The notes under the pieces were generated by a model. The model was not told the DNA's origin, made no database searches, and worked only from the letters and a program-made list of their open reading frames with translations. Positions 2,991-24,783 of a DNA stretch of 64,000 bases are shown here, piece by piece. This DNA comes from Lachnospiraceae bacterium (GTDB taxonomy: Bacteria; Bacillota; Clostridia; Lachnospirales; Lachnospiraceae): contig JAFYAS010000026.1 of assembly GCA_017540605.1 (NCBI GenBank), positions 62,001 to 126,000 of the forward strand. The letters are read 5' to 3'. Every line of letters begins with the position of its first letter. The first letter of the stretch is position 1. Position numbers and translations under genes: made by a program.

Positions 2991-3077
2991 ACAGATTTTG
3001 TCTATAATTGCTATATATTTCTTGATTTTTCATCTATTTTTATGCACAAAAACGATTTGAGTTTATCATTTTTTTCC

Positions 3078-3106
3078 TTTACAAACTTATAAAAATAGCA
3101 TATTAT
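3078..3106 (+). promoter_or_regulatory. Sigma-A promoter of the DUF1836 gene
   Basis: TTTACA (3078-3083), 17-bp spacer, TATTAT (3101-3106). It is followed about 40 bases on by AAGGAAG and the ATG at 3157. The rest of the 2991-3156 divergent intergenic region is AT-rich with no other clear element. Confidence 0.65.
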
Positions 3107-3156
3107 TACTTTATTATGTAGTTTTTAATACTATGTGTTGTTTTTAAGGAAGAGAA

Positions 3157-3795
3157 ATGAAAATGGATAAGAAACATTCAGATATTATGAATATGCTTAA
3201 AGACCTTATCAGACTTGATTATATCGATCCCAAGGATATACCTGATATTGAGCTTTATATGGATCAGGTCACAACCTATTTTGACAAACAGTTTGCCAAG
3301 AGTCGAAGGAATGAGGATGACAAGATCCTCACAAAGACTATGATCAACAATTATTCGAAGAACGGTCTTTTACCACCCTCCAACAAAAAGAAATATGGTA
3401 AGGAGCATATCATACTGCTGATATACATCTATTATCTAAAGAATTTTCTTTCCATAGGTGATATCAAGACTTTACTCTCTCCTCTCACCGAGGATATGTT
3501 TAATGACAGTTCTGATAAAAACTCAGATAAAGATAATAAGGCTTTTAATGATGTTTATACCGAGATATTTAGTCTGATGCAGCTACAAAAAGGTCTGACT
3601 GATAAAAGTCTTTATTCAGCCTACAGACTGGCAGACAGATGCTATGATGACGAAGACGACAAATACCTTCACATGCTGGCATTTATCTCGGTACTCAGCT
3701 ATGACATCTATGCTAAAAAACAGATAGTCGAATCATTAATTGATGAACTCAACAAGGAAATCGAGAAAAAGAATCCGAAAAAAAAGGATAAGTAA
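3157..3795 (+). CDS. DUF1836 domain protein, MerR-like putative transcriptional regulator
   Basis: 212 residues. The core from about residue 55 (ILTKTMINNYSKNGLLPP, then KKYGKEHI and LKNFLSIGDIKTLL) matches my recollection of the DUF1836 family, a Firmicute group with a MerR-type winged helix-turn-helix. The N-terminus is acidic and helical, and the C-terminus ends in a Lys-rich tail (EKKNPKKKDK). An AAGGAAG Shine-Dalgarno lies eight bases before the ATG. Target genes are not known. It is the only protein gene besides htpG on the plus strand, it is divergent from the EAL gene, and its 3' end faces the TrpR-like gene convergently. Confidence 0.8.
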   Translation: MKMDKKHSDIMNMLKDLIRLDYIDPKDIPDIELYMDQVTTYFDKQFAKSRRNEDDKILTKTMINNYSKNGLLPPSNKKKYGKEHIILLIYIYYLKNFLSIGDIKTLLSPLTEDMFNDSSDKNSDKDNKAFNDVYTEIFSLMQLQKGLTDKSLYSAYRLADRCYDDEDDKYLHMLAFISVLSYDIYAKKQIVESLIDELNKEIEKKNPKKKDK

Positions 3796-3804
3796 AAAAG
3801 AAAG

Positions 3805-3835
3805 TGGGCGTATGATGGAATCCATCATACGCCCA
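3805..3835 (-). terminator. Terminator, 15-bp perfect hairpin
   Basis: TGGGCGTATGATGGA at 3805-3819 is perfectly inverted at 3821-3835. On the minus strand it is followed by CTTTCTTTTTT, so it terminates the amylase-like/TrpR-like transcript. Without a T-run on the plus side it is only a weaker stop for the DUF1836 gene. Confidence 0.85.
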
Positions 3836-3886
3836 TTGAGGTTATATGAAAAACAAACTTATGAAAACAACATAATTGTAGTCTTT

Positions 3887-4171
3887 TTATTTCATTCTGT
3901 CAAGCACCATATCATAGCTGCCGTTACCGTAATTAAGGGACCTGTTCACTCTTGATATGGTTGCCGTGGATGCTCCTGTTTTTTCGGCCACCTCGTGATA
4001 GGTGCAATTATCCTTTAGCATGCATGCTACCTCGAATCTCTGAGCTAGTGATAAAAGCTCGTTGACAGTACATATATCCTCGAAAAACTCAAAATACTCT
4101 TCTTCATTCTCAAGTGTCTTTATTGCTTCGAACAGTCTCTTGACTGCATCTGTTCTTATCGTCTTACCCAT
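3887..4171 (-). CDS. yerC: YerC/YecD family TrpR-related DNA-binding protein
   Basis: 94 residues with the TrpR-type helix-turn-helix arrangement: EEYFEFFEDICTVNEL, then LAQRFEVACML, then TYHEVAEKTGASTATISRVNRSL as the recognition helices. This matches the YerC/YecD family, a group related to the Trp repressor whose ligand and regulon are not well defined. A GGGGGA Shine-Dalgarno precedes the ATG. It starts 20 bases after the amylase-like gene, no promoter is visible in between, and both share the 3805-3835 terminator, so co-transcription is likely. The gene does not lie next to trp genes here. Confidence 0.87.
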   Translation of the reverse strand: MGKTIRTDAVKRLFEAIKTLENEEEYFEFFEDICTVNELLSLAQRFEVACMLKDNCTYHEVAEKTGASTATISRVNRSLNYGNGSYDMVLDRMK

Positions 4172-4191
4172 AGGTAAAATCCCCCGAAAAA

Positions 4192-5694
4192 TTATTTTGC
4201 TTTTTTAGCTCTGGTGGACTTTGATTTTACAGGCTTTGTGTCCTTCACCGGAGTCTCTACCCATACGGCAGCGGATCCGCGATTCACATAGAACTCGCCA
4301 CATCCATCATCATCAATCTTGATGTTGTATTTTGCATTACCTGTGATATCCGAGAAGAACTGTCCAGCATGGTGTCTTCCTACGTACATCCTCTTGGTTC
4401 CACCTGCTCCGTCAGAGATCACTACAGCCACGCCTGAGCCCTTGTGCTCCTCGTCACCCTCTCTGGTCCAACCAATGCAGTTGGCGTCATCAAAGTAGTC
4501 ATGCTGATATCCGTAAGCATAAAGCTTTCTTGCTTTAAGGATGGGATCAAGAACCTTCTTCATAGACTTAACCTTGCTTGAAGGAATTCCGTAATAATCG
4601 CCGTAGAACAATGAAGGATAACCCTGCTCACGAAGCATGATAAATGCATAAGCCATAGGCTTGAACCACTCTTCTACGTAAGATTCTCTGATACCGCCGG
4701 GCTGAGATTCGTGACAATCTACAAATGTAACAGCCTCTGTGGGAACCATTGAAACCAATGTATCATCCGCAAGAGTACGAAGATCATATCCGCCATGTGC
4801 CTTTGATGCATCAAAAAGTCTGAGATGCAAGGGTACATCTAAAAGTGTGATCTCGTGATTTACATTCTGTAAAAATTCATTGAGCTTATCAACATCGAAA
4901 TGCCAGCAATCGCCAAAGCTTACTAAAGGCTTTCCGGACACATCTCTCATCATTGATACCCAATCACGATAGAAGCTGCAGGCAATCCTATGAACTCCTG
5001 AAAGCTTTACACCATCTACTCCTGTCTCACTGATGAACCATGCGCCCCAACGATAAAGCTCATCAACTACCTCCTGATTGGTGTAGTCAATATCAGCGCC
5101 CATAATGTAGTCATATTTATCCTTGTCGCCTGCTACATATTCTTTCCACTTCTTTCCTGTGAAACGCTCTATGGCAGCCTTAAAATCATCTGTATCCCAA
5201 TCTATACCGTCAAAATGCTTCCAATTCCATGTAAACTTTGAATACTTACCTTTTCTTCCGGGGAAATCAAACTTTGTCCAGCCCTTTATCACACGCTTGC
5301 TGCCAACCATCTGATTTCTGCTGTAAGCATTAAAATCATCAGCAGAGATAAGCTCTGTGCCATCAGCACCAAAACGATAGCCTGTGGGGATATCAGCATA
5401 TACCTGAATATCCTTTTCCTGTAAGGCCTTGATAGCTGCAATATAATCCTTTTTTGTTCCGTATTTGGTGGATACTGAGCCCTTTTGATTAAATTCGCCC
5501 AGATCATAGAGATCGTAAAGACCGTAGCCTGTATCGTTCTTTCCGGCTACTCCTTTAAATGCAGGTGGAAGCCAAACTGCTGTTACTCCCAGATTCTTAA
5601 GCTTGGTGGCATCAGCTGCCAGCTTTTTCCAAAGTGTGCCGTCTGCAGGCATATTTTCTTCAAAGCACTGCATTATCAATCCGTTGTTCCCCAT
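4192..5694 (-). CDS. GH13 alpha-amylase homologue lacking all three catalytic residues (putative pseudoenzyme)
   Basis: 500 residues, no signal peptide, similar in layout to Bacillus-type liquefying amylases (GH13_5): the N-terminal barrel start GVTAVWLPPAFKG, TGYGLYDLYDLGEF, IDYTNQEVV, and the C-terminal sheet domain. The catalytic positions are replaced. The nucleophile Asp of FRLDAV is Ser in VKLSGV (residue 237 counted from the upstream Met at 5709), the acid/base Glu of AEYW is Asp in GDCW (267), and the stabiliser Asp of NHD is Glu in CHE (334). The spacings of 30 and 67 equal those of B. licheniformis amylase D231/E261/D328 as I remember it. Region I NH is also lost (ADIPTGYR). The frame is intact, arguing for a retained non-catalytic role such as glycan binding. 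The C-terminus is Lys-rich. Start chosen at 5694 because GGAGG sits eight bases upstream; the ATG at 5709 overlaps it. Confidence 0.85.
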   Translation of the reverse strand: MGNNGLIMQCFEENMPADGTLWKKLAADATKLKNLGVTAVWLPPAFKGVAGKNDTGYGLYDLYDLGEFNQKGSVSTKYGTKKDYIAAIKALQEKDIQVYADIPTGYRFGADGTELISADDFNAYSRNQMVGSKRVIKGWTKFDFPGRKGKYSKFTWNWKHFDGIDWDTDDFKAAIERFTGKKWKEYVAGDKDKYDYIMGADIDYTNQEVVDELYRWGAWFISETGVDGVKLSGVHRIACSFYRDWVSMMRDVSGKPLVSFGDCWHFDVDKLNEFLQNVNHEITLLDVPLHLRLFDASKAHGGYDLRTLADDTLVSMVPTEAVTFVDCHESQPGGIRESYVEEWFKPMAYAFIMLREQGYPSLFYGDYYGIPSSKVKSMKKVLDPILKARKLYAYGYQHDYFDDANCIGWTREGDEEHKGSGVAVVISDGAGGTKRMYVGRHHAGQFFSDITGNAKYNIKIDDDGCGEFYVNRGSAAVWVETPVKDTKPVKSKSTRAKKAK

Positions 5695-5745
5695 TGTTCC
5701 ATCCTCCATTTTTTGCTCAGAGTTTTTGTTTGTCTAGCTTTTTAC

Positions 5746-5774
5746 AGTATAACAAATATGACCTAAAATCGCAA
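5746..5774 (-). promoter_or_regulatory. Sigma-A promoter of the amylase-like/yerC operon
   Basis: Minus strand: TTGCGA (5769-5774), 17-bp spacer, TATACT (5746-5751), leading to the GGAGG/ATG at 5694 after about 45 bases. Confidence 0.65.
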
Positions 5775-5835
5775 CCACCTATTGTGGCTAAATTCACTGT
5801 TGAAATACGATTCATCTTTTAAAAAACTTACTGTA

Positions 5836-6558
5836 TTACTCCCCTTCAATAATTGCTGAATTGGTTTTAATGATAGCTCTGGGAATAGAATCCTTCGCAT
5901 TCTTCCAGGGTTCATCCTTGTATCTGTAATCATATTTATTGATAAACCAGGCAACATCTTCATTGACTCTCTCGATATTATCAAAGAACACCTTATCAAC
6001 AGTTTGAAGGAATTCAGTAAGGTCATTTCCGGACAATTCCTTAGCGGCATTCTCATAGAGCAGACCATAATGCTCAACACAAAAGCCCTTACAGCTCTTT
6101 ACTGCATCCTTAAATGAACTGTCCTTCTTCCACATGTGGAAAATGGTATTCACATATCTTTGAAAGGTATCCTCGATACGACCACAGATAAAACAGGTTG
6201 ATTTAAGACCTTTGACATAGTCAACTACCGAGCTTCCGCCTGTGGCTTTTTTAAACAGTCCGCCACCGGAGGGCTTATCACTTGAAGCCTGCTTTAAGTC
6301 CTTTATCACTTTGTCCATATGGGTATTAAGCATCAGTGCAAGACCAAGCCTGTTCTTCTCATTATACAGATCTCTGATATGCTTGCCGCAAAAGCCAAGC
6401 TTATCTGTCATGGCACGATTGTCATCCTCCATATAGCTTGGTCCCATGGTATATTCTATGGCATTCCTCTCTAAAGATCTTCTCATGGCACAGATAGGAC
6501 ACTCACAGTCCTCGTTGAATGCATCTGTAACAGGTATGGTATATAGTTGTTCTTTCAT
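5836..6558 (-). CDS. DUF6062 family cysteine-motif protein
   Basis: 240 residues, soluble, no signal peptide. Two paired Cys/His modules are visible: CECPICAMRRSLE with FCGKHIRDLY, then CFICGRIEDTF with FCVEHYGLLY. The N-terminal block (YTIPVTDAFN, then EYTMGPSYMEDD) matches the DUF6062 family that I recall from Lachnospiraceae. The repeated CxxC...CxxH layout suggests two metal-binding half-domains, probably zinc, but no function is established. An AAGGAG Shine-Dalgarno precedes the ATG. It is monocistronic, with its own promoter. Confidence 0.75.
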   Translation of the reverse strand: MKEQLYTIPVTDAFNEDCECPICAMRRSLERNAIEYTMGPSYMEDDNRAMTDKLGFCGKHIRDLYNEKNRLGLALMLNTHMDKVIKDLKQASSDKPSGGGLFKKATGGSSVVDYVKGLKSTCFICGRIEDTFQRYVNTIFHMWKKDSSFKDAVKSCKGFCVEHYGLLYENAAKELSGNDLTEFLQTVDKVFFDNIERVNEDVAWFINKYDYRYKDEPWKNAKDSIPRAIIKTNSAIIEGE

Positions 6559-6592
6559 AAGGCACTCCTTTTTCTTATATTCACATATGCCT

Positions 6593-6622
6593 ATTGTATG
6601 CGTTTTATGGGAGGTTTGTCAA
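6593..6622 (-). promoter_or_regulatory. Sigma-A promoter of the DUF6062 gene
   Basis: Minus strand: TTGACA (6617-6622), 18-bp spacer, TACAAT (6593-6598), about 35 bases before the ATG. The -35 box abuts the terminator of the upstream gene. Confidence 0.7.
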
Positions 6623-6625
6623 ATA

Positions 6626-6663
6626 TAAAAAACATCCTACAGTACCGAAATACCGTAGGATGT
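6626..6663 (-). terminator. Terminator of the 581-residue secreted protein gene
   Basis: Minus strand: ACATCCTAC (6655-6663) pairs with GTAGGATGT (6632-6640), with further inner pairing, and is followed by TTTTTT at 6626-6631. Confidence 0.85.
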
Positions 6664-6678
6664 CATAATGATGTCTAA

Positions 6679-8424
6679 TTATTTAATCTTTACTTTCTTT
6701 GCCTTACCCCATGAACCGTAGGCTGTGAAGGTATTTGAATACTTCTTGGTTACACGGCACTTAAGGTTAAGTGTCTTCTTACAAGAAGCGGGGGTGTTTC
6801 CACCCTTTACAAGTCTAAAGTTTGCTGAAGGCTTGTTGGTGGTATTGGGGCAGCTTGTACCGTAGATATTGTACTCATAGCTTGTTGCACCCTTTACCTT
6901 GGCAACAGTGATCTTACCGTTTGCAGCGTAGAAGGTATACTTCTTCTTGTACTCATTCCACTTACCGGGATTGTAGGTAAGAGTTCCTGTTTCCTTTGAA
7001 ATCTTTATATTGGTAACACTCTTTATAGTGGGCTTTGCAGCAGGTGCTGTACCAACTGTAAATGCCTTGCTAAGCTTACTCTCAGCCTTTGACTTGCTGT
7101 CATAGTTGGTAAGCTTGATCTGATACTTAGTATTTGCCTTAAGCTTCTTAAGAGTAATGCTGCTTCCCTTTGCTGTGCCTGCAAGCACGAACTTGCTTCC
7201 CTTCTTAAGATAGATCCTGATTGAATCTGCCTTTGAATCAGAGTTTGTACTCCAGCTCTTTACTGTGATAGCGTTTGAGCTACCGGTTCCCTGATAATCC
7301 ACGAAAGGCCTGGGCGTGTTGGTAACAGTCCATGTATCAACGACCTCGCCTCTCTCATCCTTGATCTTTACAGCAAACTTTCCAAAGTTGTCATCCTTGA
7401 AGATAACCTCTGTCAAAGGATTATCCTTGTCTAAAGAAAGCTTTGAGGTATCAACCTCAGCGCTCTTGGGGAAGCCGTCTGCGTCCTCGGGAACAATACC
7501 GATGATGCTGTTTGATTCTGTATAGTTCTTACCTTTTTCCTCAACCTTGATCTCGTTACCCTGCTTGAACTTAAGACCGGTGATTGGCTTATAAGGTCTC
7601 AATATAAAGCTCTTGAAGCCTCTGTCCATATTCTTGCCGATTGAACCACCTCTAACAAACATATAGTATGTTCCGGCCTCATAGAAAGACATCTTAGCCT
7701 TGTTATCTTTCATCTTCTCTCCGCCGGGCTCGGTCTGATAAGAAGTAGCTGTAGTATTGGTGGGATAGAAAATATTAGCATCAAGCTTAGAAAACGGAAT
7801 TTCTTTGTTAGAATTTAACTGCTGACTAAGTCCATCATAGAAATTCTTGTCTGAAACAGCAGGTGTAGTACCATCATTCTTGTAGAACATAAAAGTCGCA
7901 GAAGTATTATAAGGCTCAAACTCGATTGTTGAAGGAGCTGTGATGGTGAACCTAAACCAAGTTTCTTCGGCCGGGTCTGCTCCCTGAGGAATAGATACAG
8001 GTGCAGCTGTAGTAACATTAGTAAGGTCATAAGCAGATTCTTTTGTGTTGTAGTTGTTCGCTTCTTCAAAAGCGATCTCAACTGATCTTGATCCTGCTAC
8101 TCTGATGATAACAGGAGTATTTGCCTTTACCTCTTCATAAGAACCACCGTAATACTCACGTCCTTCAAGCCCCTTATAAATGGTTCCGCCTGAGAACTTT
8201 ACCATACCATCCTTGGCGAAAGTAATGGAATAAACCAAGCCTTCCTTTGAGCCACTGTATGAGTATGTTCCAAAATCAGAAATAGTACCTATATAAGGAT
8301 CACCTGTTGTTCCTGTTCCGCCTGTAGGTGTTAAAGCTGTTGCTGCATCAACAACTGCTGATGAAAGAACAAATCCTCCGATAAGCAGAAGTAATGCAAA
8401 TAAATGTGTTGCTATTCGTTTCAT
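6679..8424 (-). CDS. Secreted protein with PPC-like and fibronectin type III-like domains, function unknown
   Basis: 581 residues. An N-terminal signal peptide (MKR, then a hydrophobic stretch, then VVDAA) points to export. Residues ~30-110 form a beta-rich domain; ~115-260 resemble a pre-peptidase C-terminal (PPC-like) sandwich (ESAYDLT...ETWFRFTITAPSTIEF), and the segment GTYYMFVRGG fits that. A fibronectin III-like segment follows (SIRIYLKKGSKF...LKANTKYQIKLTNYDS, about 395-450), then a basic C-terminal domain ending GKAKKVKIK. No catalytic motif, LPXTG or membrane anchor is seen. An AAAGGAGGG Shine-Dalgarno lies before the ATG. The similar Lys-rich end in neighbouring secreted proteins suggests a common way of staying with the cell wall (inference). 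Confidence 0.7.
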   Translation of the reverse strand: MKRIATHLFALLLLIGGFVLSSAVVDAATALTPTGGTGTTGDPYIGTISDFGTYSYSGSKEGLVYSITFAKDGMVKFSGGTIYKGLEGREYYGGSYEEVKANTPVIIRVAGSRSVEIAFEEANNYNTKESAYDLTNVTTAAPVSIPQGADPAEETWFRFTITAPSTIEFEPYNTSATFMFYKNDGTTPAVSDKNFYDGLSQQLNSNKEIPFSKLDANIFYPTNTTATSYQTEPGGEKMKDNKAKMSFYEAGTYYMFVRGGSIGKNMDRGFKSFILRPYKPITGLKFKQGNEIKVEEKGKNYTESNSIIGIVPEDADGFPKSAEVDTSKLSLDKDNPLTEVIFKDDNFGKFAVKIKDERGEVVDTWTVTNTPRPFVDYQGTGSSNAITVKSWSTNSDSKADSIRIYLKKGSKFVLAGTAKGSSITLKKLKANTKYQIKLTNYDSKSKAESKLSKAFTVGTAPAAKPTIKSVTNIKISKETGTLTYNPGKWNEYKKKYTFYAANGKITVAKVKGATSYEYNIYGTSCPNTTNKPSANFRLVKGGNTPASCKKTLNLKCRVTKKYSNTFTAYGSWGKAKKVKIK

Positions 8425-8642: not shown

Positions 8643-11600
8643 TTACTTGACTGTAACCTTAACCTTCTTGGCATATCCGTTTTTAGCATATATCCAGATA
8701 ACTGTTGAACCCTTCTTCTTGGCAGTTATCTTTCCATTCTTGTCTACGGTTGCAACAGTCTTGTTTGTAGATGCATATCTAAACTCAGTTGTATGTGCAT
8801 CTGTAAGCTGCTTTTTCTTCTTGTCAACAAGTACAGTTAGCGCTTTGATCTTCGAGGTCTTACCCTTCTTAAGAGTAAGTGATTTACTGCTCTTTAAGGT
8901 TATCGACTTAACATTGGTAAACTTGGTATTCTTAACACCTACAATGTGAGCTGTGATAGACTTACCGATCACTACCTTATTGCCGCCGATATTCCTGTAA
9001 GCACTTACATAAACCTTGAAATTCTTCTTAAGCTTCAAAGCCTTGCTGTTGATCTTATTGATCTTGGCTGTTACAGTATTTGCTTTCTTGATGGTCTTTG
9101 TAGCCTTGGTAGTGAACTTGCTTCCACAGTACTGTACAAATATATCATAGCCATCTGCATAGCTTACCTTACCCCAGGTTACATTGATGTTCTTTCCTAC
9201 CTGATCAACCTTCAAGCCTTCGTTGATCTTAAATGTAGTAGTCTCAACCTTTGCAGGGGCAGTATATTTCACAATCTCAGCCTGGATCTCTTTTTCTTTT
9301 TCAGATATTTCAGGATCCTGTGACTGAGGTGCCTCTGTGGTTTCTGTTGTCTCAGTTGTTTTGGGAGCCTCAGTTGTATCAGGTACCACAACAGGGGTAT
9401 CAGGTACTACTATCGGCTTGTCCCAACCAAGTACATAAGTAGAGAACTTTCTTGCGTAGATAATAAGTGTAGCTCCGTTGTCCTTGAACTCACAATGCTC
9501 TCCTGTTGTACCCTGAGGTATTTCATCAACTCCACCATCATGATATCTGTAAACCACAAGATTCTTGTGTGAACGCTGCTCTTCGGTAAGAGCTATCTTA
9601 AGAGCCAGGAGATTGGGTGTCTCTTTAAGCAATGAGCTTACCTTATTGCTGTTGACGTCTATTACTTCTTTGATGATCGAGATATCAAGGATCATTCCGA
9701 TATCCTTTCCGGAATTCTCAGCCTTTGAAATAAGTCCCTTTTCAGATGAAGGTACATCTGCGATACCTGTTGCATTAAGAGTGATATTAACACTTCCGCC
9801 ATTTAGAACCTTGATCTGATCATCCTTTGTAATACCTAAGTCATCCTTATCTACCAGGTTTTCATAATCCATAAGCTCATCCATACCTTCGATAACTGTC
9901 TTTGGAGCATTCACTACATTGACAGCTGTAGAAAGGTCTCCGATATTTGAGCCCTCGTTTACAACCTTGCCCTTGTTGTCGACAGGTGCATTGAAGCTGT
10001 TGTCACTCATGATACCATTGTTGGTCACAGGCTTATTGATCTCGGTATCGGAAATACTTCCGTTGTTGGTCACGCCAACATCAATACTACCGCCACTCAT
10101 GGTTTTGTTGTTGGTGATAGATCCGTCACCGCCTACAGTACCCTGGTTGTTGATCTTTCCGTTATTGACAAGTGTTCCGTCTACATCAAGCTTCACATTA
10201 TCTGCGACCTTCAATGTCGAATTCTTGTCAACTACAAGCTTGATATCATCAGGTACGGTTATATCATTCTTAACAGTCACATCATTTATTATATGAACCT
10301 CACCTGATCCCTCTGAAAGTGCAGTTTCAAGAGAACCATACTTCATATAGCCGTCAGCTGCTTTATAGCTTGTCTCCTGCTCGCTGTTTTTAAGCCACTT
10401 AGCATAAACAACCGTATCCTTCTGGATAGCAGTATCAAAATCATACAGTGTATCCATGTTTTCATCTGTGTACCAGTTTACAAATGTATGATCTGCATCC
10501 TTGGGATAAGCAGGTCTTGTTGCCTTGTTGCCTCGAACTATTGTCTGAGCTGCTATCTGAGTTCCTACATTCATCATATTGAAGGTGAACTGATAGGTAA
10601 TAGCATTACCCTCATTGTCATTAAATGTTGCATTGGAATCGAGATTGTCAACATCTCCGCTTACATCCGTTCCTTCAACTGATCCGTTGTTGATAAGATC
10701 ACCCTTGATGTCACTGTTCTTTATAGCACCCTCGTTGATTACCGTCGAATCACCATCACCAACCTTGGTATTTTCAAGCTCTCCTGTAGGTTGATTGGTA
10801 ATATTTCCGGTTACCTTGGATTCATTGCCCTCAGAACCCTTGTAGGTTCCGGAATTATCCAGGTTACCGTTTACATCTGTATCTACGGCTTCTCCATTAT
10901 TCAAAAGATCACCATTTACAGTACATCCGTCTATGCTACCGTTGTTTTCTACATTGCCAAGCGTCACATCATCAATAGTACCTGTAGCTCCATTGATCGT
11001 TTTGCCGCCGACTGTAGAGGTGTTATTTTCTGTGCTCTTGAAGGTTCCGTTGTTGGTAAGATCTCCATCCACATCTGTGTCAGAAATAGTACCACCATTG
11101 ATTACATTGCCCTTTACATCAGCACCGGAAACATTGCCGGAATTATCAAGATCACCATCAACTGTTGAGTCTTTTAATGTACCGGAATTGTCAAGATTTC
11201 CGGAAACAACTGCATCAGATATAGTTCCGTTATCATTATTGGTCACATCACCCACAATGCTTGTGTTGCTTATGTTTCCACCGATATTGTCTAAGTCACC
11301 CTTCACATCAGAATTGGTCACTGTACCATTGTTGGTTACATCACCATTTACATCATCACCGGTCATAGTACCATTGTTGGTCACATCACCGTTTACATCT
11401 ATACCATCAACATTTCCGTTGTTGGTCACAGGGCTGTTGACAGCAGACTTATCGCCCTCTCCCTTGATAGTACCATTGTTGATGATAGGATCATTGCCTT
11501 CGGTATTGTCAAGGGAACCTGTCTCTGAAACCTTCAATGTAGTTCCTTCATCTACAGTAAGGCTTGTGCCCTCAGGTATAACAAGAGACTTTGTGATCTC

Positions 11601-14600
11601 AGTGTCATTTTTAATAGTTATTTCCGTAGGCTTAGGATCAGCTGCTAAGGCTTCTTCAAGTGAACCATAGTTTGTATTACCCGCAGTATCCTTCCACATA
11701 GTCTCCTGATCATCAGCGCATAACCATTTTGCATAGAGAATCAAATCTTCTGTTACAACCTTATCGAAGTCATACTTTTTGCTAAGTGCTGCATCTACGA
11801 ACCAATCAGCTACGATCAGTCCTGCCTGATCATCAATGATCCTTGAAGGCTTTTCAACCCTTCCGCCCACAACTATCTCTTGTGATTCAATAGGATCTCC
11901 ATAAGCTCCAAGGTCAAAGGATACGGTTCTTGTAGCATTGTTAATATTTCCTGTTACTGTACCATCGGTGATGGTATTTGACATGGTTCCTTCATTGTTG
12001 ATGTCACCACCAACAGTTGCGGGATTCTTCGGATTATCACTACCAAAGGTTGCATTCTCATCATTATCAACATTGCCGCCTACATTGGTGTTGGTAGCTG
12101 ATCCCTTGTTGTCAAGATCGCCAACTATCTCTGAGCCATTTATAACAGCATCCTCGTTGTTGGTCACATTGCCATCAATAGATGAATCTTTAATAGTGCC
12201 ATTATTTGTGGTCTCACCCTTGATATCAACATCCGTTATGGTTCCGTTGTTTGTGATAGGGCTATTGATTGCAGGTTTGTCCCCTTCATTATCTCCCTTA
12301 ATAGTACCATTGTTGATAATAGGATCATTGCCCTCGGTGTTGTCAAGAGAACCATCCTCAGATATTTCCAAGGTAACATCCTCGTCTACAGTAACCGTAG
12401 TGCCTTCAGGTATAACAAGAGGCTTTGTGATCTCTGTGTCATTCTGAATGATGATACTTGCAGGGTTAGGATCTGCCTCTAATGCTTCTTCAAGAGTTCC
12501 GTAATGATCCTCACCCTCAGTATCAGTCCATTTAGCCTCCATGGTGGTATTAGAAACCCACTTAGCATAGAGTGTGGTTTCAACCTCTACTGCAAGAGTA
12601 AAGTCATAAGCATTAGTCTTAGCTTCATTGGTATACCATCCTTCGATGATCTGATCCTCGTAGCTTGCTCTGGCAGGCTTTGTAACCTTTCTGCCCTTTT
12701 TGATAGTCTCATCAGGAATAGTTACAGCATCATTACCGGTCACGAAGTGTACAGTTACCATATCGAAGTTGGTTTCGCCATCTCCGGTGGTCTCACCTTC
12801 GACATTGGTATTGTCCATCTGACCTTCATTATAAACATTACCTTCAATATCATTATGTCCGTCTTTGCCGGTACCAATGATCTTGCCGTAGTTTATGATC
12901 ACACTTGAGTCAGGAACCTCGATACTACCGTTCTCTTCTATGGTCACGGTCACACCCTTGTCGATAATGAGCTTTGTATTCTCAGGAACCTCAAGAACCT
13001 TATCAATAGTCATGTCGTTTTGGATATGTATCTCAAACATACCATCCTCTGTAGCAGGCTCCTTGTCCTTAAGCTCATCAAGTATCTCTTCAAGAGTTCC
13101 ATACTGCTTTTCGCCATTCTCGTCCACATAAGAAGACTGATCTTCAGTATCTACGGGATCCGGTGTTTCCTCAGAGGCTTCAGCCAATTTCCATGTAGCC
13201 TTGAATGTAAGATCTGTACAGGTACCTGAAACGATCTTTACATTTATGGTGGGTCTCTTAAGGGTATCACCGATCCAACCGATAAACTCATAGCCTTCCT
13301 TAACAGGATTGTTGAGTGAGAAGGTTTCGTCATCAGCTGTAAAGCGCGTTCTGTTCATGCTTCCTGTAACCTTGCCGCCATCAAGATCGGTGACAAGCTT
13401 ATATACAGCTGCATCCCAATCAGCAACAACACTGATATTTCCGGTGGTGTTTGCAGGTATGGTAAATGAATTTCCTTCAAGCTTTGTGGGAGCCCCACCT
13501 GCTATTGAAACATACCAGCCGTCAAATGCGTCACGACCTCTCTTTACTGTATTCAATGTTACAGTCTGATCAATGCTCTTCCTTGCATAGAATGAAGGAT
13601 TGTCAAAGGCAGCATCCGCAAGCTCTCCATGCTTATAGTCATAGTTGATCTTGTAGGTCTCCTGCTTAATATAAACAGTGAACTCAGATGAGCCGTCATC
13701 AGCTATCTTTCCTGAAAGAACATTGACCTTAGTTTCATCTATAGAGTAGAAACAATTAGGATCTGTTTCAGCCATGTATCTTGTAATAACATCGCTCTCC
13801 ATATTCAGAGTAATATTCTCATCTGTATTTGCGGCAAATTCCATAACCTTCGGTTCATCAGTATATTTACCGTTAACCTCATAGAATACATTGAGCTTAG
13901 CTGTGGTTTCGGCGGGTGCCCAGGTAGCCTTATAGCTTCTGTTTCCTGTGGAATTCTCAGGGATCACAAGATTTGAGATAGCAGCCTCAAGACCTGTTCC
14001 TGTCCATCCCATAAATGCATAGCCTTTCCTTGAAGGATTGGGAATAGATACTTCTGTTGCCCTTGTATAGCCTGTAGGCACTTCATAATTCTCGGGCCAT
14101 GCTCCACCATCCAGATCAAAGCTCAGCTTGTAGTCTATGTAATTCCAAACTGCAACCATTGTGATATCTCCAGTGGTGCCCTTGTTGATCACATAGGTCT
14201 TCTTGGCATCAGCGTCTGTTTCATTATTCTTTCTCCAGCCAAGGAAGTTTGATCCTGCAAGCTCAGGATTCTTTAGAGTGATATTCTCTGTCTCAATATC
14301 ATAGGTAGAAGGGTTGGTCTTGCCATTTGGAAGTAATCCACCATTCAATATATATTCGATACCATACTTGTCAGTGTCCCAGGTTGCAGTATATTCTGCG
14401 GTCTTCTTAACTTTTGTTACAAGCTTGCTATATCCATAGCTTGTCTGGTGATATCCGACAGCAGGTTCAAAGTCATAAGAAGGAATAACAGCATCGAAAT
14501 CAAGATTTTCAAATACCTGATCTGTTTCGCCGTCCTTTGCATGTGTACCGGGCTTGATGGTCACAATGTATTGAGCCTTTAAGTAAACCTTAAGCTTCAT

Positions 14601-17600
14601 TGAACCATCTCTTGTAATACTTGCACTTAAGACATTGTTTGTGTTGTTCTCATCAAATACATATGTACACTGAGAAGACTTTTCTTCGTTGATACCTTCA
14701 ACAATAGTTTCTACAGCAAGCTTATCTGCATCAGTCACACTCACCAAGGTAGCTGTGGTTCCTGTCCTTTCTGTATCAGATGCTGTTGCTGTCTCACTAT
14801 AGCTTCCGTCAACAGGATCCTGATAGAAGTATTCTACCGTATATGCAGTGTTATCGTTGGGAGTCCACTGTGCATAAAGGGTAATGCTTCCACCCTCCTC
14901 TGACACAAGGTTGATGACCTCTGCTGCGTCCGTATAAGCATCCCCGGTGCCGTTAGCCTTAGTTGTCCACTTATCAAAGGTATAGCCGGTTCTTATAAAG
15001 CTATTTGCTGTCAGTGCCTTAGCTACATCATAAACCATAGAAAGATCTTCCATAGTTCCGGTTGCTTCCTCTGAGTTCTTGTCAAAGCTTATAGAATATG
15101 CATTGGCTGTCCACCTTGCTACTACTGTCTTATCCTCTGTGAAGGTCCATGATGTAATAGCAGGGGTTCCGTCAGCATTTACTATCTTGGTATCTCCAAG
15201 GAAGTAGCCGTTGAAGGTGTAGCCTGTTCTTGAAGGTGCGGTAACATCGGATAAAGCAGCGTCATAGGTCACATTGAGAGTTCCGCTTCCACCTGTTCCG
15301 TTGTTGTCATCAAGTGTCAAGGTATAATTCTTTGCTGTCCATTTTGCTGTAAATGTGATCTCAGCTTCATCAACAGCTGTAAGATTTTCTACATTGGCCT
15401 TGTCAGCATAGGTATTATTGTTGTAGGTCCATCCTGCAAAACCATAACCGGCTCTTGCATATTTATTCTCAGGAAGAATGTTTGCAGGATCCTTGTAATT
15501 AAATGTAAAGCTTGCATCAGCCATAGTACCCGTAACCTCTGAGGTACCTGCAGCAGTATTCTTATCAAACTTTACAGTAAATGTATGAGGTCTCCATATT
15601 GCATAAAGGGTAACGGATGATCCGTTTTCCGATACAAGATTCTGTACTGAAGCCTCGTCGGCTAAGGTGTCGCCGGTACCGGAAGCCTCAGTATTCCAAC
15701 CTGTAAATGTGTAGCCTGTTCTTGCAAATGTATTCTTTGTAAGTGTTGTTGCGGCATCATAGGTGAAACCTGTCTGATCGGCCATAGTACCTGTCACGGT
15801 ATCCTCTGTATTCTTGTCGTACTTAACAGTATAGGTATTGGGAATCCAAACAGCCTTTAATGTTGCATTGGCAGTTCTATCCCAGGCCTTGATACCGGCA
15901 CCTGTATTATCGATATACTTTGTTCCGGTGTTTGTTCCATCGGTTGTATAACCGTTAAAGGTATATCCTGTCTTTGAAGGAAGGGACTCAATCTGCGCTA
16001 TCTTATCGTCAAAGTAAACAGTTGTGCTTGCTGTGCCTTCAGTTGTAGCAGCATTTCCATCCAATGTAACAGTGTAAGAGATCTTATCCCACTGTGCATA
16101 AAGAGTAATGCTTCCATTGTTGGTGTCAACAAGGTTGATTACCTCAGCCTTATCGGAATAAGGAATTCCTATACCGTCTGCCTTGGTATTCCAACCTGTA
16201 AATGTATAACCGTCACGGGTATATACATTCTCGGTAAGATTTGCAGCCAAGTCATAGGTCATGGATTCATTATCCATAGTGCCTACTACATTGCTTGAAC
16301 CCGTTCCCTTGTTCCTGTCAAATACAATGGAATAGCTGTTGGCAGTCCATGCAGCAGTGTAGGTTCTATTTTCCTTTACGCCCTCAGTATATTCATTAGT
16401 CACAAATTCAGTAACAGCTCTGTGATATCCGGTTGCTGCAGCAAATGAATGTGAAGGAGTAAGCTTATAATCCCAATCAACCTTTGTTGTGCTATCAGAT
16501 ACTGCACTCTGTGCTGCATGTGAGCCAGGAGCATAGGTGATGGTATATTGAAGCTTAAAGTAAACCTTAAGTACAGTAGCCCCTGTTCTGTCTATAGTAC
16601 CTGAAAGGATCTTTGACTCGTTATTTGAATCAAATGCATAATCAGAGGTTCCTGTATAGGTAGAAACAGGAAGTTTATCATATTCTGTTACAGCACATTC
16701 TGACGCTGTAGTTCCGGTTCTTGATACCTCGTTCTTCTTTTCAAAGGTTCCATCAGTCTCCTTCTGATAGTAATATTCCACCTTATAAGAGGTATTCGTA
16801 TTCGGCGTCCACTGAGCATAGAGGATGATGCTTCCGTTATTGGTGGAAACAAGATTCTGAACCGAATGCTTATCAGTGTAAGCAACACCCTGTTCATTAT
16901 CATTAGGTGAAGTAAGTGTATTCCATCCTGCAAAGGTATAACCTGTTCTTACAAAGGCATTCTCAGTAAGAGTTGCCACAGTATCATAGGTTATCTCTTG
17001 ATCAGCCATAGGTATAGCCGCTTCTGTTTCTGATGCATCGGTAAAGTTCTTGTCAAATACAACCTTGTAGGTTATAGGAGCCCATTTTGCGTAGAGATCA
17101 ACTGTAGCTCCTGAAACAGCAGAAAGATTACTAACCTGCTCTTGATCTGTGTGTACTACATTTCCACTTTCTGATGTTGCCCAGCCTATAAAAGTGTAGC
17201 CTGTCTTTTCAAAAGCATTGGCTGTAAGAGTCTGTGCCTCGTTATAGGTAAAGCTCTGGTCTGTCATAGAGCCGCTTGTAGAACCATTGCCGTGGAATCT
17301 TACCTCATACCCGTTGGCTGTCCACATTGCAAAAAGCGTTGTGTCCTCGGATTTATCCCAGGCTTTTGCACCGGTACCATCCGGATTGATATATTTTGTT
17401 TCTGTATCTTGTCCGTCTCTGTAGCCACCAAATGTATAGCCTGTCATTGTGGGTGCTACAAAACTGCCTTCATTTCCTGCATATATGTAAGAGTTTGATC
17501 CATAGGTTGCAGTAGCTGTTTCTGATCCGCCCACTGCACCAACACCTCTGTTAAATGTTACAGTATAGGTCTTCGGTGTCCACTGAGCATAAAGGGTTAA

Positions 17601-20600
17601 ATCTCTGTGAGAAGGTACATTATTGGCAAATGATGCGCCATCGGCATAGCTAGTACCGGGAGTTTCTGTGGTAGGTGTCGGTACCGTATTCCAGCCTGCA
17701 AAATCATAGGTGGTTCTTGTGAATGCATTGGCTGTTAGAGCGGCTGATGTATTATAATTTATGGTCTGAGAAGACATTGTTCCTGTTGCATCATCAGCAT
17801 TCTTATTAAAGGTAATGACAGTCTTTGCAGTCTCCCACTTTGCATGGTAGGTATAGTTTGTCTTAGTGTTTGTATTTAACTGTATAAATCGTGTATTCTC
17901 ATCTTCTAGATTAGTATACCATCCAACAAATTGACTACCTATCTTTGTAGGTGTAGGAAGGAGGGCAAAGTTACTTGTCTCAACCGTATAGGTTATGGTA
18001 GCTGTTGCTCCATTTTTAGTATATGTCGGAGAAGTAGTCAGCTCACCAAAATTGAAGGTATCAGGGAATACCGCTCCCTCTCCGCCATCAAGAGTTACAC
18101 TATAATCTATAGCTGTCCAGGTTGCAGTATATGATCTGTCACCTGTAGAACCGGTTGCTATGGTCACTGATGTGGTTGCATCATCTAACCCTGTACCTGT
18201 CCAGCCTGCAAATGTATAGCCGGCTTTAGTAGGGTTGATGAGTGTAATATTATCTGATTCTATATTGTAGCTTACAGGATTTGAACTTTCACCAAAGCTA
18301 CCGTCATTAAGTGAGTAGCTAATAGTATAATTGATAGGTGTCCAAACTGCGGTATAGGTTCTATCTTCTTTTACTGTAGTTCCATATTGTGTGGAGGCAA
18401 AATCAGTATCAAGTCTGGTATAACCTGTTGCTGCAGTAAATGAATGTGAAGGAGTAAGTGCTCCCCAATCAACCGTTTCACTACTGCTTGTTTCGCCAGC
18501 AGCTGCGTGATCACCGGGTTCATAGGTGATAGTATATTGGAGCTTAAAATAAACCTTAAGTACTGTTGATCCATCAGCATTTATAGATGCTGAAAGCACA
18601 TTGTTAGAGTTTAATTCATCAAATATATAAGTATTGCCGCCTGTGTAAGTAACATTTGGAATCTTGTCATCATCTGTTACTCTTGCTGTAGTTAAGGTTG
18701 TTCCGGTTTCTGTATCACTATCATTGGCATCTGCCGGATATTCGCCGGTTAAGGCATTCTGATAGTAATACTTAACAGTATATTCGGTATCGGTAGCGGG
18801 ATCCCACTTAGCATATAGATTGATTTCTCCGCTCGCTGAGGATGTAAGATTTATCACAGAATCTTCGTTGGTATATACAACGGGCGCATCTTCTAAATCC
18901 GATGTAGTCCAGCCTGCGAATGTATAGCCGGTTTTGCTGAATCCATTGTTTGTTAGATTCTGGGGTACATCATAAGTAAAGCTCTGATCCTCCATAGAAC
19001 CGCTTGTTGGATCATTCCCATGGAACTTAACGGTATATGTGTTAGCATTCCATTTAGCAAAGAGGTCAATCACTCCTTCTGATGTTGAAGAAAGATTGCT
19101 CACGGATTGATTATTGGTGTATTCCACATTACCTTCTGCTGATGTAGCCCAACCAGCAAAAGTATAGCCTGTTTTTGTAAATGCGTTAGTTGTGAGATTT
19201 TGTGATATTTCATACACAAAGCTCTGGGAATTCATAGAGCCTTCGCCACCGTTTGCATGGAAATTTACAGTATATCCGTTAGGAGTCCATACTGCAAAAA
19301 GATTTACAGTACCGTCATTTGTTGTAGTAAGATTATTCACAGATTGATTATTGGTGTATTCCACATCGCCCTCTGATGATATAGCCCAACCAGCAAAGGT
19401 ATACCCCTCTCTGTTAAATCCATTTGTTGATAAGTTTTGAGGATCTCCATATGTAAAAGCTTGATCTGAAATATCGCCTGTAGCATTTTCAGCGTTCCTA
19501 TTAAAATGAACAGTATAGCTAATACCTGTCCATTTTGCAAAAAGATCAGTGTTACTTGCTTTTATCCATTTACTATCACTATCTGTATAATTGGTAGCGC
19601 TCGCAATTGGTGAACCATTTGCATTGATAACCTGTGTTCCTCCACCGGACTCTTCTGTATAATAACCACCAAAAATATATCCATCCTTAGTAGGCAGTGA
19701 AGTGATAGGGGTAACCACCTCGTTGTATGTCACGTTTTTTGAAACCTGATTCTCTGAATCATTATATAAAGTTAGTGTATATTGAATAGGTGACCATACA
19801 GCATACAGATCCACTGTTGCTCCCTGAGTTGTTGAAAGATTTGAAACTGTTGTACCGGGATCATAATTTATTCCCTGTCCATTTTGAGCAGTATTCCAAT
19901 TTGTTAACGTATAACCCTCTCTTGAAAATCGATTTGATGCTTCTAAATCAAAATCAGCACCATATGAAATTGTACCATCAGGATCATAAGGTACATCACT
20001 TCCGTAATTGCTATGATAAATCACATTGTATGTAATAGGTGTCCATCTTGCATAAAGAACTACAAGTCCATCATTTGCTGTAGTCAAGTTGGTTACTTCT
20101 TGTTGATCATTATAGTTAGAATATTCGTTACCAGAGGGATTAATATTCCAACCTGCAAAGGTATAACCAGTCCTACTGAATCCATTTTCTGTTAACTGCT
20201 GCTGATTTCCATAGGTGAATTGTTGGTTAACCATTGTGCCAATAGCATCTTCTGCATTTTTATCAAATGATACATTATAGGTGTTTGGTGTCCACCTTGC
20301 AGTATAAATAGCATCTGCTGTCGCTGTTACACGGTTTTCATTGGGTAAGGCTACAGTAAAATCAGTTGCTGCTCTATGATATCCGGTCGCTGCATCAAAT
20401 ACCTTTGAAACTACATAAGTTTCATTTAAGAACTTGTTTTCAACCACATCCTGAGCGCCGGCAGCTGCGTGAGCTCCGGGTTGATAAGTAATAGTGTACT
20501 TAGGCAGATAATATACCTTGAAGGTGGTTGATCCATCACTCTTCATAGTAGCCGTAGTAACAGGTTCGTATTCGGTATCTCCTGCAATAGCATCGTTTAT

Positions 20601-23600
20601 GATGGTAGTATTATCGCAATAATCGTAGGTACAGCTATTACTTGTTTGCTTAGTTGATATAGCGTTTGTCCAAGCAATTAGTCCTTTAAGAGTAGTCAAC
20701 ACATTTGTAATATCTACACTTTGACCTGTAACATATTGATTATATGTTGCAGTACCTACAGCAATTGGGATAGTTGTAGCTGTATCTAAAGTTCCGTCAG
20801 TTTTTACAAAGTTAAGCTCAACATTATAGGCAACCTTAGTGGGCTCCCACATAGCATAAAGAACTATATCCTTACCAAGATATCTTTGATCATATTGATG
20901 ATAAGAATAATATGCCGTATTGGCAGTCTCTATAGTTCCAATAGATACATAATTATCTCCGTTCTTGATCTTATATCCCCTAAAGGTATAACCCGGTCGA
21001 GAAGGTGTACCAAGTGTAATATCGGCATCAAGGAAACTGAAAGATGTAGGCAGGGAGCTTGTGATAGATGAATTAGCATCAGCAAATTCTACAGGTGTAG
21101 TTGTAGCAGTAGCTCCTGAATCATAACGACAATCCTTCACAACTATATTGGACACAGGTGCCCATATCGGATAGAAGGATACGATACCGCTTACAGCTTT
21201 ATCCTTATAATCATCCGACGCCGCGCCTTCATTATCTATTGAGACAACATCGGCATTATTCGGATTTGAAGTATATTCTCCGACAGCTTTTCTTGCTCCA
21301 TTTTTATAATCATCAATAGTAAGCTCTTTTCCAACAGACCAGCCTCCAAATTGAAGATCTGATTCCCAGCCGTAATCGGAATAAGTGTATCTTCCATTGA
21401 CAACACTTCCACCGGAATAGAAATTATCTATATTCGGAAGTGTTGTTGCCACATTATTCTTGGGACCGATCCAAGAATGTGATTCCTCTCCCTCCCAGGT
21501 CCATTGCTTTTCTAGTATAGTCTTCGTATCTGATCCGGTGTTGGGATAATGATCCTTATAATCAAATTTGGTCTTTAATCTTATGGTATAGCTTGTATCC
21601 CATTGTGCATAAAGATTGATTGTGGCTCCGTCATTTCCAAGGTCAGGAATCCTTGCGCCACCTTCGTATGCTGTTCCACTGCCATTACGTACCGTATTCC
21701 AACCGTTAAATAAGTAGCTCTCATTACTTAGATTGTTATCCGATTCCAAGAACAGATCACCAATCTTAGCGGAAGTAACAGTTTTTACGAGTGTAGTATC
21801 ATTGGCATCACTATTTCTATAATAATTTATAGTATAAGACTCATTGGCTGTTGACACTACAAAAGCAGGCTTTTTATATTTCACATCCGAATCTCTGGGA
21901 ATAACGATTCTATTTACATCTTCTGTTGATAATATCAGTCCCTCATTTTGAGCTCCGCCGGTATCAACACCCGCATTTGTATAATACTTAAGAGTCCATG
22001 CAGAGCCCTGTTTTGCGCTACTTGAACTAAATATGTTTAATGGTATCTCATAAATAACATCAGTTTTAATATTTGCTGTAAGCTTTCCACCTTCTTTGGT
22101 AATGGTGAAATAATGCTTATTAGAATCTGTATTTGCAGCTCCAAGAGCATTGTATGCCGCAATTCCCTCATCATCGATTGAAAGCTCCGGTCCATTTTCT
22201 TCAGGCTCACAAAGAAGCTCTACTGTGACAGAGTCGTCATATACCGGGTATAAATCTATGATATGAGTATATTCTCTGTTATGATAATCCTTTGTTGAAC
22301 CCGCTAAGACTCTTTCGTCTAACACTAAAGCATCATTTCTGTCGATATATACATAATCATTGTGATCTTTAACAAGATCACTTGCGCTTCCTTCGAATGA
22401 AAAACTATTGATCAACCAACCCTTTACATCCTGAAGCTTTTCCGCTTTTACATCATCTGCGTATCCTTTTATTGTATTAGAAGGGACAGTATCGCCTATC
22501 TGATAGGTGTCCGCCATCACTTCATAATCGCCCTGATTATCCTGAGTCGAATTTCCCTCATGAATCCTAAGCTTATAATCATTCTTAACCCAATTGGCAT
22601 AAAGGTTAAGCTGAAGGTAGGATTGATCATTTTCTTTCTTTAAACCATCAACTGTTCGAGCATAGTCCTTAGCATCCTCCCATGATTGATCTGCCAAAGC
22701 AAGGTTCTGATCATAGCGTAATAATTTGTTGTATATATTGCTGGAACTATTGCCAAAATCGCTGTTATCATAGGTGTAATACTGATCAACACCGGTTTCT
22801 GAATCTCCTCTTTCAGAATCATAAATAGTTCCTGTCAAAGAGGTATTATCGTACCAACCATTCAAATGATAACCTATCTTCGTCATAGAATGGAGCTTGC
22901 CGTTATCGGTTTCTATTTCCTTGTTTCCATAGAGAATAACGTTGGCATCATTGGGACTTTCACCAACTGTCCAAAAAGGTGTGGAATATGCATTATCTGC
23001 CATCTGATGATAGACAGGCGTTTTTGTATCAGTTGCATCATAGTGATATACAATATTGTATCTCTTTACATCCCACTTAGAATCGACGATCAATATATTT
23101 CTGTTTATTGTTTTTTTTGTTGAAGACTTTACAATATAAGAACCGTTGCCTGTCTCAACATTTCCTTCGGTTTCAACAAGGCCATTATAGATAGTCGTAT
23201 TATCCTTTGGATTTTTGTTGAATTTTGCTTCTTTTGAAACTGCTTCAACATTGGTATCCGTATATGGAATAAATGACATAGGAACATAACCGGTATCGCC
23301 GGGGGAAACCATAGTTCCTATTTCAGGCAAAGAGACAGGTGTATCTTCGCTCAAAAATGGATAGTTATACTTTAATTCGTCCACTTTTTTAGCATACAGA
23401 ATATGGAAATTATCAAAATATGCAGTATCAACATATTCATCAACCTTGAAGTCTCTGTCATATTTAATGGCATAAGCTCTTAGGAAGGTAGGAGTTGTTA
23501 CTGTAGATGTTTGCTTATTTTCCTTGGTAGTACTATCAAAATCATATTGCTTTCCTGTGAATATAATCTCCTTTCCACGGAAATAGTCAGTGTTTGCTTT

Positions 23601-24719: not shown

Positions 24720-24783
24720 AAGCATACCTCCGTGTTAAAATAATTTTCCTCAAAATGCACTAAAAAAAGTATGTCTATGTGAG

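Follow-up and report, generated by a model that had tools for sequence, protein, structure and literature searches.

The amylase gene and its neighbourhood

The window, i.e., the whole stretch of 64,000 nucleotides that was analysed, carries a putative pseudo-amylase gene of the GH13_5 type on the minus strand (4192..5694), assigned by profile, PDB and fold matches. The open reading frame (5709..4192, 505 aa) reaches back to an in-frame ATG upstream at 5709, and translation probably begins at the ATG at 5694 (MGNNG...), which lies behind GGAGG, agrees with the coordinate in an earlier note on this DNA and corresponds to the start in relatives. That note had described the frame, Shine-Dalgarno sequence and promoter of the gene as intact; the frame is open, GGAGG precedes the ATG, and the promoter-like site TTGCGA-17-TATACT (5746..5774, minus strand) was recognised by consensus match only. 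The N-terminus of the amylase is without signal-peptide-like sequence; the gene comes from a gut-type bacterium, and the amylase is of the intracellular type. A search of positions 3000-7000 against Rfam returned no RNA family.

Separated from the amylase gene by 20 bp, a downstream gene of the TrpR family, yerC/hisR (3887..4171, minus strand), was recognised by TIGR02531 (131 bits, cut-off 42.2), with 3frw and 3g1c as the nearest PDB entries. YerC has been identified as HisR, a histidine-responsive TrpR-family repressor, and HisR of R. gnavus shows histidine-responsive binding to its operator (PMC9413887). Immediately upstream of the amylase gene lies a DUF6062 gene (5836-6558, minus strand; 330 bits) with Cys-pair motifs, which was not found near the orthologues, and at 8643-24725 on the same strand a single open frame of 5360 aa encodes a giant surface protein with a signal-like N-terminus, dozens of '..GYTFAGWNT..' repeats that by eye resemble the InlB B-repeat, followed by Asn/Gly-rich repeats and a C-terminus of Ig-like type.

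The amylase-like protein scored 605 bits with the NCBIfam model NF006969 (PRK09441, alpha-amylase; cut-off 382), and the closest solved structure in a PDB sequence search was about 51% identical (566 bits), the alignment to 4uzu, 6ag0 and 1hvx running almost without gaps across residues 9-486. An AlphaFold model (mean pLDDT 82.7) superposed on the B. licheniformis amylase 1vjs over 444 residues at 2.0 Å (VIA Z 58.1), and the similarity extends across domains A, B and C, as in members of the GH13_5-type alpha-amylase fold family. A Lys-rich C-terminal tail (residues 488-505; 4195..4248, minus strand) is absent from the aligned orthologues, and it has low pLDDT. The protein thus resembles the liquefying alpha-amylases of GH13_5 (B. 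licheniformis / G. stearothermophilus type) in fold, A-B-C order and motif spacing, at about 51% identity to 4uzu/1hvx over some 478 residues, whereas it differs from them in its replaced triad and region I Asn-His, the lack of a signal-peptide-like N-terminus, its adjacency to hisR and an unusually conserved domain C.

Replacement of the catalytic residues

The earlier note had claimed that all three GH13 catalytic residues are replaced, and the alignments to 4uzu, 6ag0 and 1hvx as well as to orthologues confirmed it: the nucleophile Asp (BLA D231) reads Ser237 (codon 4999..5001), the acid/base Glu (BLA E261) reads Asp267 (4909..4911) and the transition-state Asp (BLA D328) reads Glu334 (4708..4710), all on the minus strand. 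The spacings of 30 and 67 between them are canonical, and misalignment of the triad, a risk that the note had judged to be low, is excluded by the near-gapless PDB alignments, the orthologue alignment and the fold superposition; these comparisons placed no intact Asp/Glu/Asp in the active site. The reported loss of the region I Asn-His was likewise borne out, with Gly-Tyr at codons 110-111 (5377..5382, minus strand) in both orthologue and PDB alignments. Beside N110G and H111Y, we observed R235K, K240H, H241R and N332C, so that the region II Arg and Lys-His are also missing (K235, H240-R241). Among positions invariant in live homologues, 18 of 88 were changed in domains A/B of the window protein, mainly in known GH13 motifs, compared to 0 of 11 in domain C. 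The protein is homologous to an enzyme family and has lost its essential catalytic residues, and judging from these replacements it is probably catalytically inactive.

Two readings would nevertheless leave the old cleft in use. The protein might retain some amylase activity, or use Ser/Asp/Glu for a different chemistry, since carboxylates occupy two of the three triad positions and the fold is intact, but the His, Arg, Lys and Asn residues that assist the triad are gone and independent lineages carry ten unlike triads (see below), making this reading very unlikely. The earlier note had proposed instead a glycan sensor or binding protein. A sensor or lectin acting through the former active-site cleft could draw on subsite-type residues that remain (Y62, Y199, W269, H333, and Q336); however, the -1 site is destroyed by H111Y, R235K, N332C and the triad changes, W18 is replaced, every altered lineage shows relaxation in the cleft-forming domains A/B, and others among them have lost W269. 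With selection strongest on domain C and not on the old cleft, we consider such a cleft-based role improbable.

Repeated loss in a hisR-linked clade

Homologues were gathered from GTDB genomes, the choice of genera being steered by first matches, and triads were read after alignment. The orthologue of a congener (L010/L026) is 67% identical to the window protein, has the triad Asp/Glu/Asp and shares the arrangement DUF1836 - hisR - amy with the window. Both fall in a Lachnospiraceae clade, represented in the tree by 104 near-full-length amylases, whose genes lie directly upstream of yerC/hisR; 88 of these proteins have an intact and 16 an altered triad, in addition to the altered fragment L064. 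In contrast, none of 60 homologues lacking a hisR neighbour had an altered triad (Fisher p = 3e-4 with the fragment counted, the rows not being independent). Besides SDE of the window, the altered triads were DEE (L052; L181, L182), DEN (L226; L228, L229, L230), DDE (L236, L238), ESD (L056), DQD (L232), DAD (L070), AED (L057), NNN (L059) and DKD (L062), and ten triads so unlike each other across lineages argue against a new common catalytic motif. Lineages in which D334E or D334N is the sole triad change could, as far as the sequence tells, retain residual activity. The altered genomes are mostly metagenome bins, while L232 (DQD) lies on a contig of 3.19 Mb.

In a tree built without near-invariant columns, the triad was altered on about 11 separate branches (11 changes, each of them required by branches with good support, and 11-12 in bootstrap replicates), the positions of the long rows L062, L059 and L009 being less sure, and a single inherited loss was therefore rejected. 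Several altered groups comprise two or three species (L228/229/230, L236/238, L181/182, and L056/226), showing that altered proteins outlast speciation. The residues lost most often in them were W18, N198, D334, H111, H241, A238 and E267, mostly in active-site motifs. N198, invariant in live amylases, is missing from 12/16 altered proteins, Lys or Asp being frequent substitutes, and W18 is likewise missing from 12/16 (among them L009, L052, L056, L057, L070, L228-L230, L232, L236, L238, and others); these are recurrent losses secondary to the loss of catalysis. L057 and L056 both lack the stretch around residues 173-195, where the window model is of low confidence, probably by separate deletions.

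In two genera, 60/61 and 36/37 species, respectively, carry the gene, compared to 51/397 genomes sampled across the family. A search of seven altered genomes with the family model returned the altered gene as the sole GH13_5 copy above cut-off in each, which excludes a spare paralogue for these genomes. A glycogen synthase domain was found in 34/34 altered and intact genomes, which gives no support to the idea that the alterations stem from a lost glycogen metabolism.

Pairwise codon models of altered species pairs gave omega values of 0.035-0.121 in A/B and 0.001-0.044 in C (likelihood ratios against omega = 1 between 43 and 380), while intact pairs with unsaturated dS gave 0.020-0.057 in A/B. 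The window lineage is without a close relative, and its own constraint was judged solely against the congener, a pair with saturated synonymous sites, an open frame and identical residues at 64% of A/B and 78% of C positions; a three-taxon codon model was discarded as saturated, with boundary fits and a mis-indexed row (L048). The earlier note had held that orthologues with normal residues would indicate recent decay. The congener does have such residues, but decay into a pseudogene fails as an explanation because omega between altered proteins is 0.035-0.12, their frames are intact and the gene is kept in nearly all species of the two genera. Selection on altered proteins well below omega = 1 and the sparing of domain C indicate a protein that is maintained, for the window lineage itself only as far as the saturated congener comparison allows. 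The note's suggestion of a pseudoenzyme gains support, at the sequence level, from the roughly 11 parallel losses, purifying selection and the single-copy state of the gene. With so many losses in a single-copy gene and the rest of the protein, above all its C-terminal domain, kept, the protein seems to have a job other than cutting.

Domain C and possible roles of the protein

Domain C of the window protein (residues 398-485; 4255..4518, minus strand) has not changed at any of the 49 residues that are invariant among intact clade members, whereas 25 of 156 such residues were changed in A/B. Across the altered proteins, the 205 clade-invariant residues were changed in 315/2496 cells in A/B vs. 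7/784 in C (p about 3e-30, the cells not being independent). A clade-specific signature in this domain, rare outside the hisR-linked clade, consists of A459, Y461, I463 and K464 in the motif AKYNIK (459-464; 4318..4335, minus strand) together with Y474 and R477 (4288-4290 and 4279-4281, minus strand), and all six residues were found in 16/16 altered proteins. The branches of altered lineages were accelerated in A/B and little or not in C, with lengths for the first half, the second half and C of 0.51/0.61/0.012 in L056, 0.26/0.11/0.013 in L057 and 0.45/0.65/0.25 in the window; in the outside enzymes L011 and L012, it is domain C that evolves fastest. Domain C often had the lower pairwise dS, but codons of unchanged residues have changed about equally often all along the gene; DNA-level constraint near hisR was therefore rejected, and domain C is constrained as a protein. 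Its conservation may partly reflect stability.

These data also bear on passive retention, in which catalysis is useless and the gene is carried along since its promoter and transcript feed hisR. In the window, the 20 bp gap between amy and hisR contains no promoter-like site that we could find, whereas the gap of the congener is 94 bp and includes an operator. Against such hitchhiking stand the strong purifying selection at the amino-acid level in altered pairs, the domain-specific sparing and the absence of synonymous constraint towards hisR, and we give it very little credence indeed.

We favor, with a probability of about 0.72, that the cytoplasmic amylase of the window is catalytically dead but maintained, and that domain C of the clade holds a catalysis-independent function for which hydrolysis is expendable. 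The hisR-linked GH13_5 clade would then have a second function without catalysis, located mainly in a domain C patch around AKYNIK, Y474 and R477, and selection for this function would have kept the protein while glucan hydrolysis was lost about 11 times without gene duplication or gene loss, the window lineage being among the most complete losses. Domain C presumably binds something, and might bind glucan. Our guess, by analogy, is that the partner would be intracellular glucan or glycogen, or a glycogen-associated protein, which we prefer because all 34 genomes keep glycogen synthase and because of the precedent of ISA1/ISA2. A bolder version, tentative at best, is that the clade amylase serves above all as a regulatory or structural partner that acts through domain C on HisR or glycogen-bound protein complexes, with hydrolysis a dispensable by-function; if this were true, one single-copy gene would show every grade in nature between a working enzyme and an entirely dead pseudoenzyme.

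Could the partner be HisR itself? Domain C of live and dead amylases alike might bind HisR or its ligand path and tie glucan status to the histidine regulon, a role that is more novel than glucan or glycogen binding and builds on the known identity of HisR (PMC9413887). The adjacency to hisR throughout the clade, found in no other amylases, speaks for this role, as does a HisR-type operator (at least 12/14 positions of cacTTTAnnnnnnTAAAgtg) upstream of amy in 39/100 clade members vs. 3/2000 shuffled sequences and 1/59 unlinked amylases. The operator lies 40-180 bp upstream of amy with 12-14 of 14 positions in L033, L169, L071, L036, L040, L035, L192 and others, and since it precedes amy so often, the amylase in many members belongs, as a by-member, to an apparently autoregulated hisR operon and apparently to the histidine regulon. 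However, sharing of an operon would by itself explain the operator, which in the group of the congener (L010, L027, and L076) sits between amy and hisR, and near the window amy no HisR operator was found (best 9/14). A match with two mismatches at 6803-6822 was dismissed, as it falls within a different ORF and such matches were no more numerous across the genome than in the control. Coupling to HisR through domain C is thus unlikely in our view.

For the favored reading, a catalysis-independent function in domain C, several known systems offer parallels. In plants, ISA2 and a non-catalytic role of ISA1 (PMC12510319) similarly involve GH13 proteins, lost catalytic residues and retention by selection, and in maize the hydrolysis-independent function was mapped away from the active site; ISA2, however, is an old paralogue paired with an active one, whereas here a single-copy orthologue was altered many times, in bacteria. 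The ectodomains of 4F2hc and rBAT (PMC8537225) use the GH13 fold as a non-catalytic protein partner, with a triad not conserved in all orthologues, but they are animal membrane glycoproteins of another GH13 branch with a transporter as partner. Beetle GH28 pseudo-polygalacturonases (PMC6549527) are also glycoside hydrolase pseudoenzymes with a biological role, yet they are secreted, belong to another family and arose from gene duplication. Among the openly licensed papers searched, none connected GH13 with both 'catalytically inactive' and pseudoenzyme, and none connected hisR with amylase, although such absence is weak evidence.

For annotation, the 'equivalog' NF006969 names these proteins alpha-amylase, above its cut-off, though many of them can hardly be amylases. 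Pseudoenzymes among glycoside hydrolases are usually explained by duplication, which frees a spare copy. Here, a single-copy orthologue loses catalysis repeatedly yet stays under purifying selection that is strongest in one domain. The clade is thereby a natural mutational experiment in which the catalytic job of an 'ordinary' amylase can be told apart from its non-catalytic one, and it directs attention to a function of domain C.
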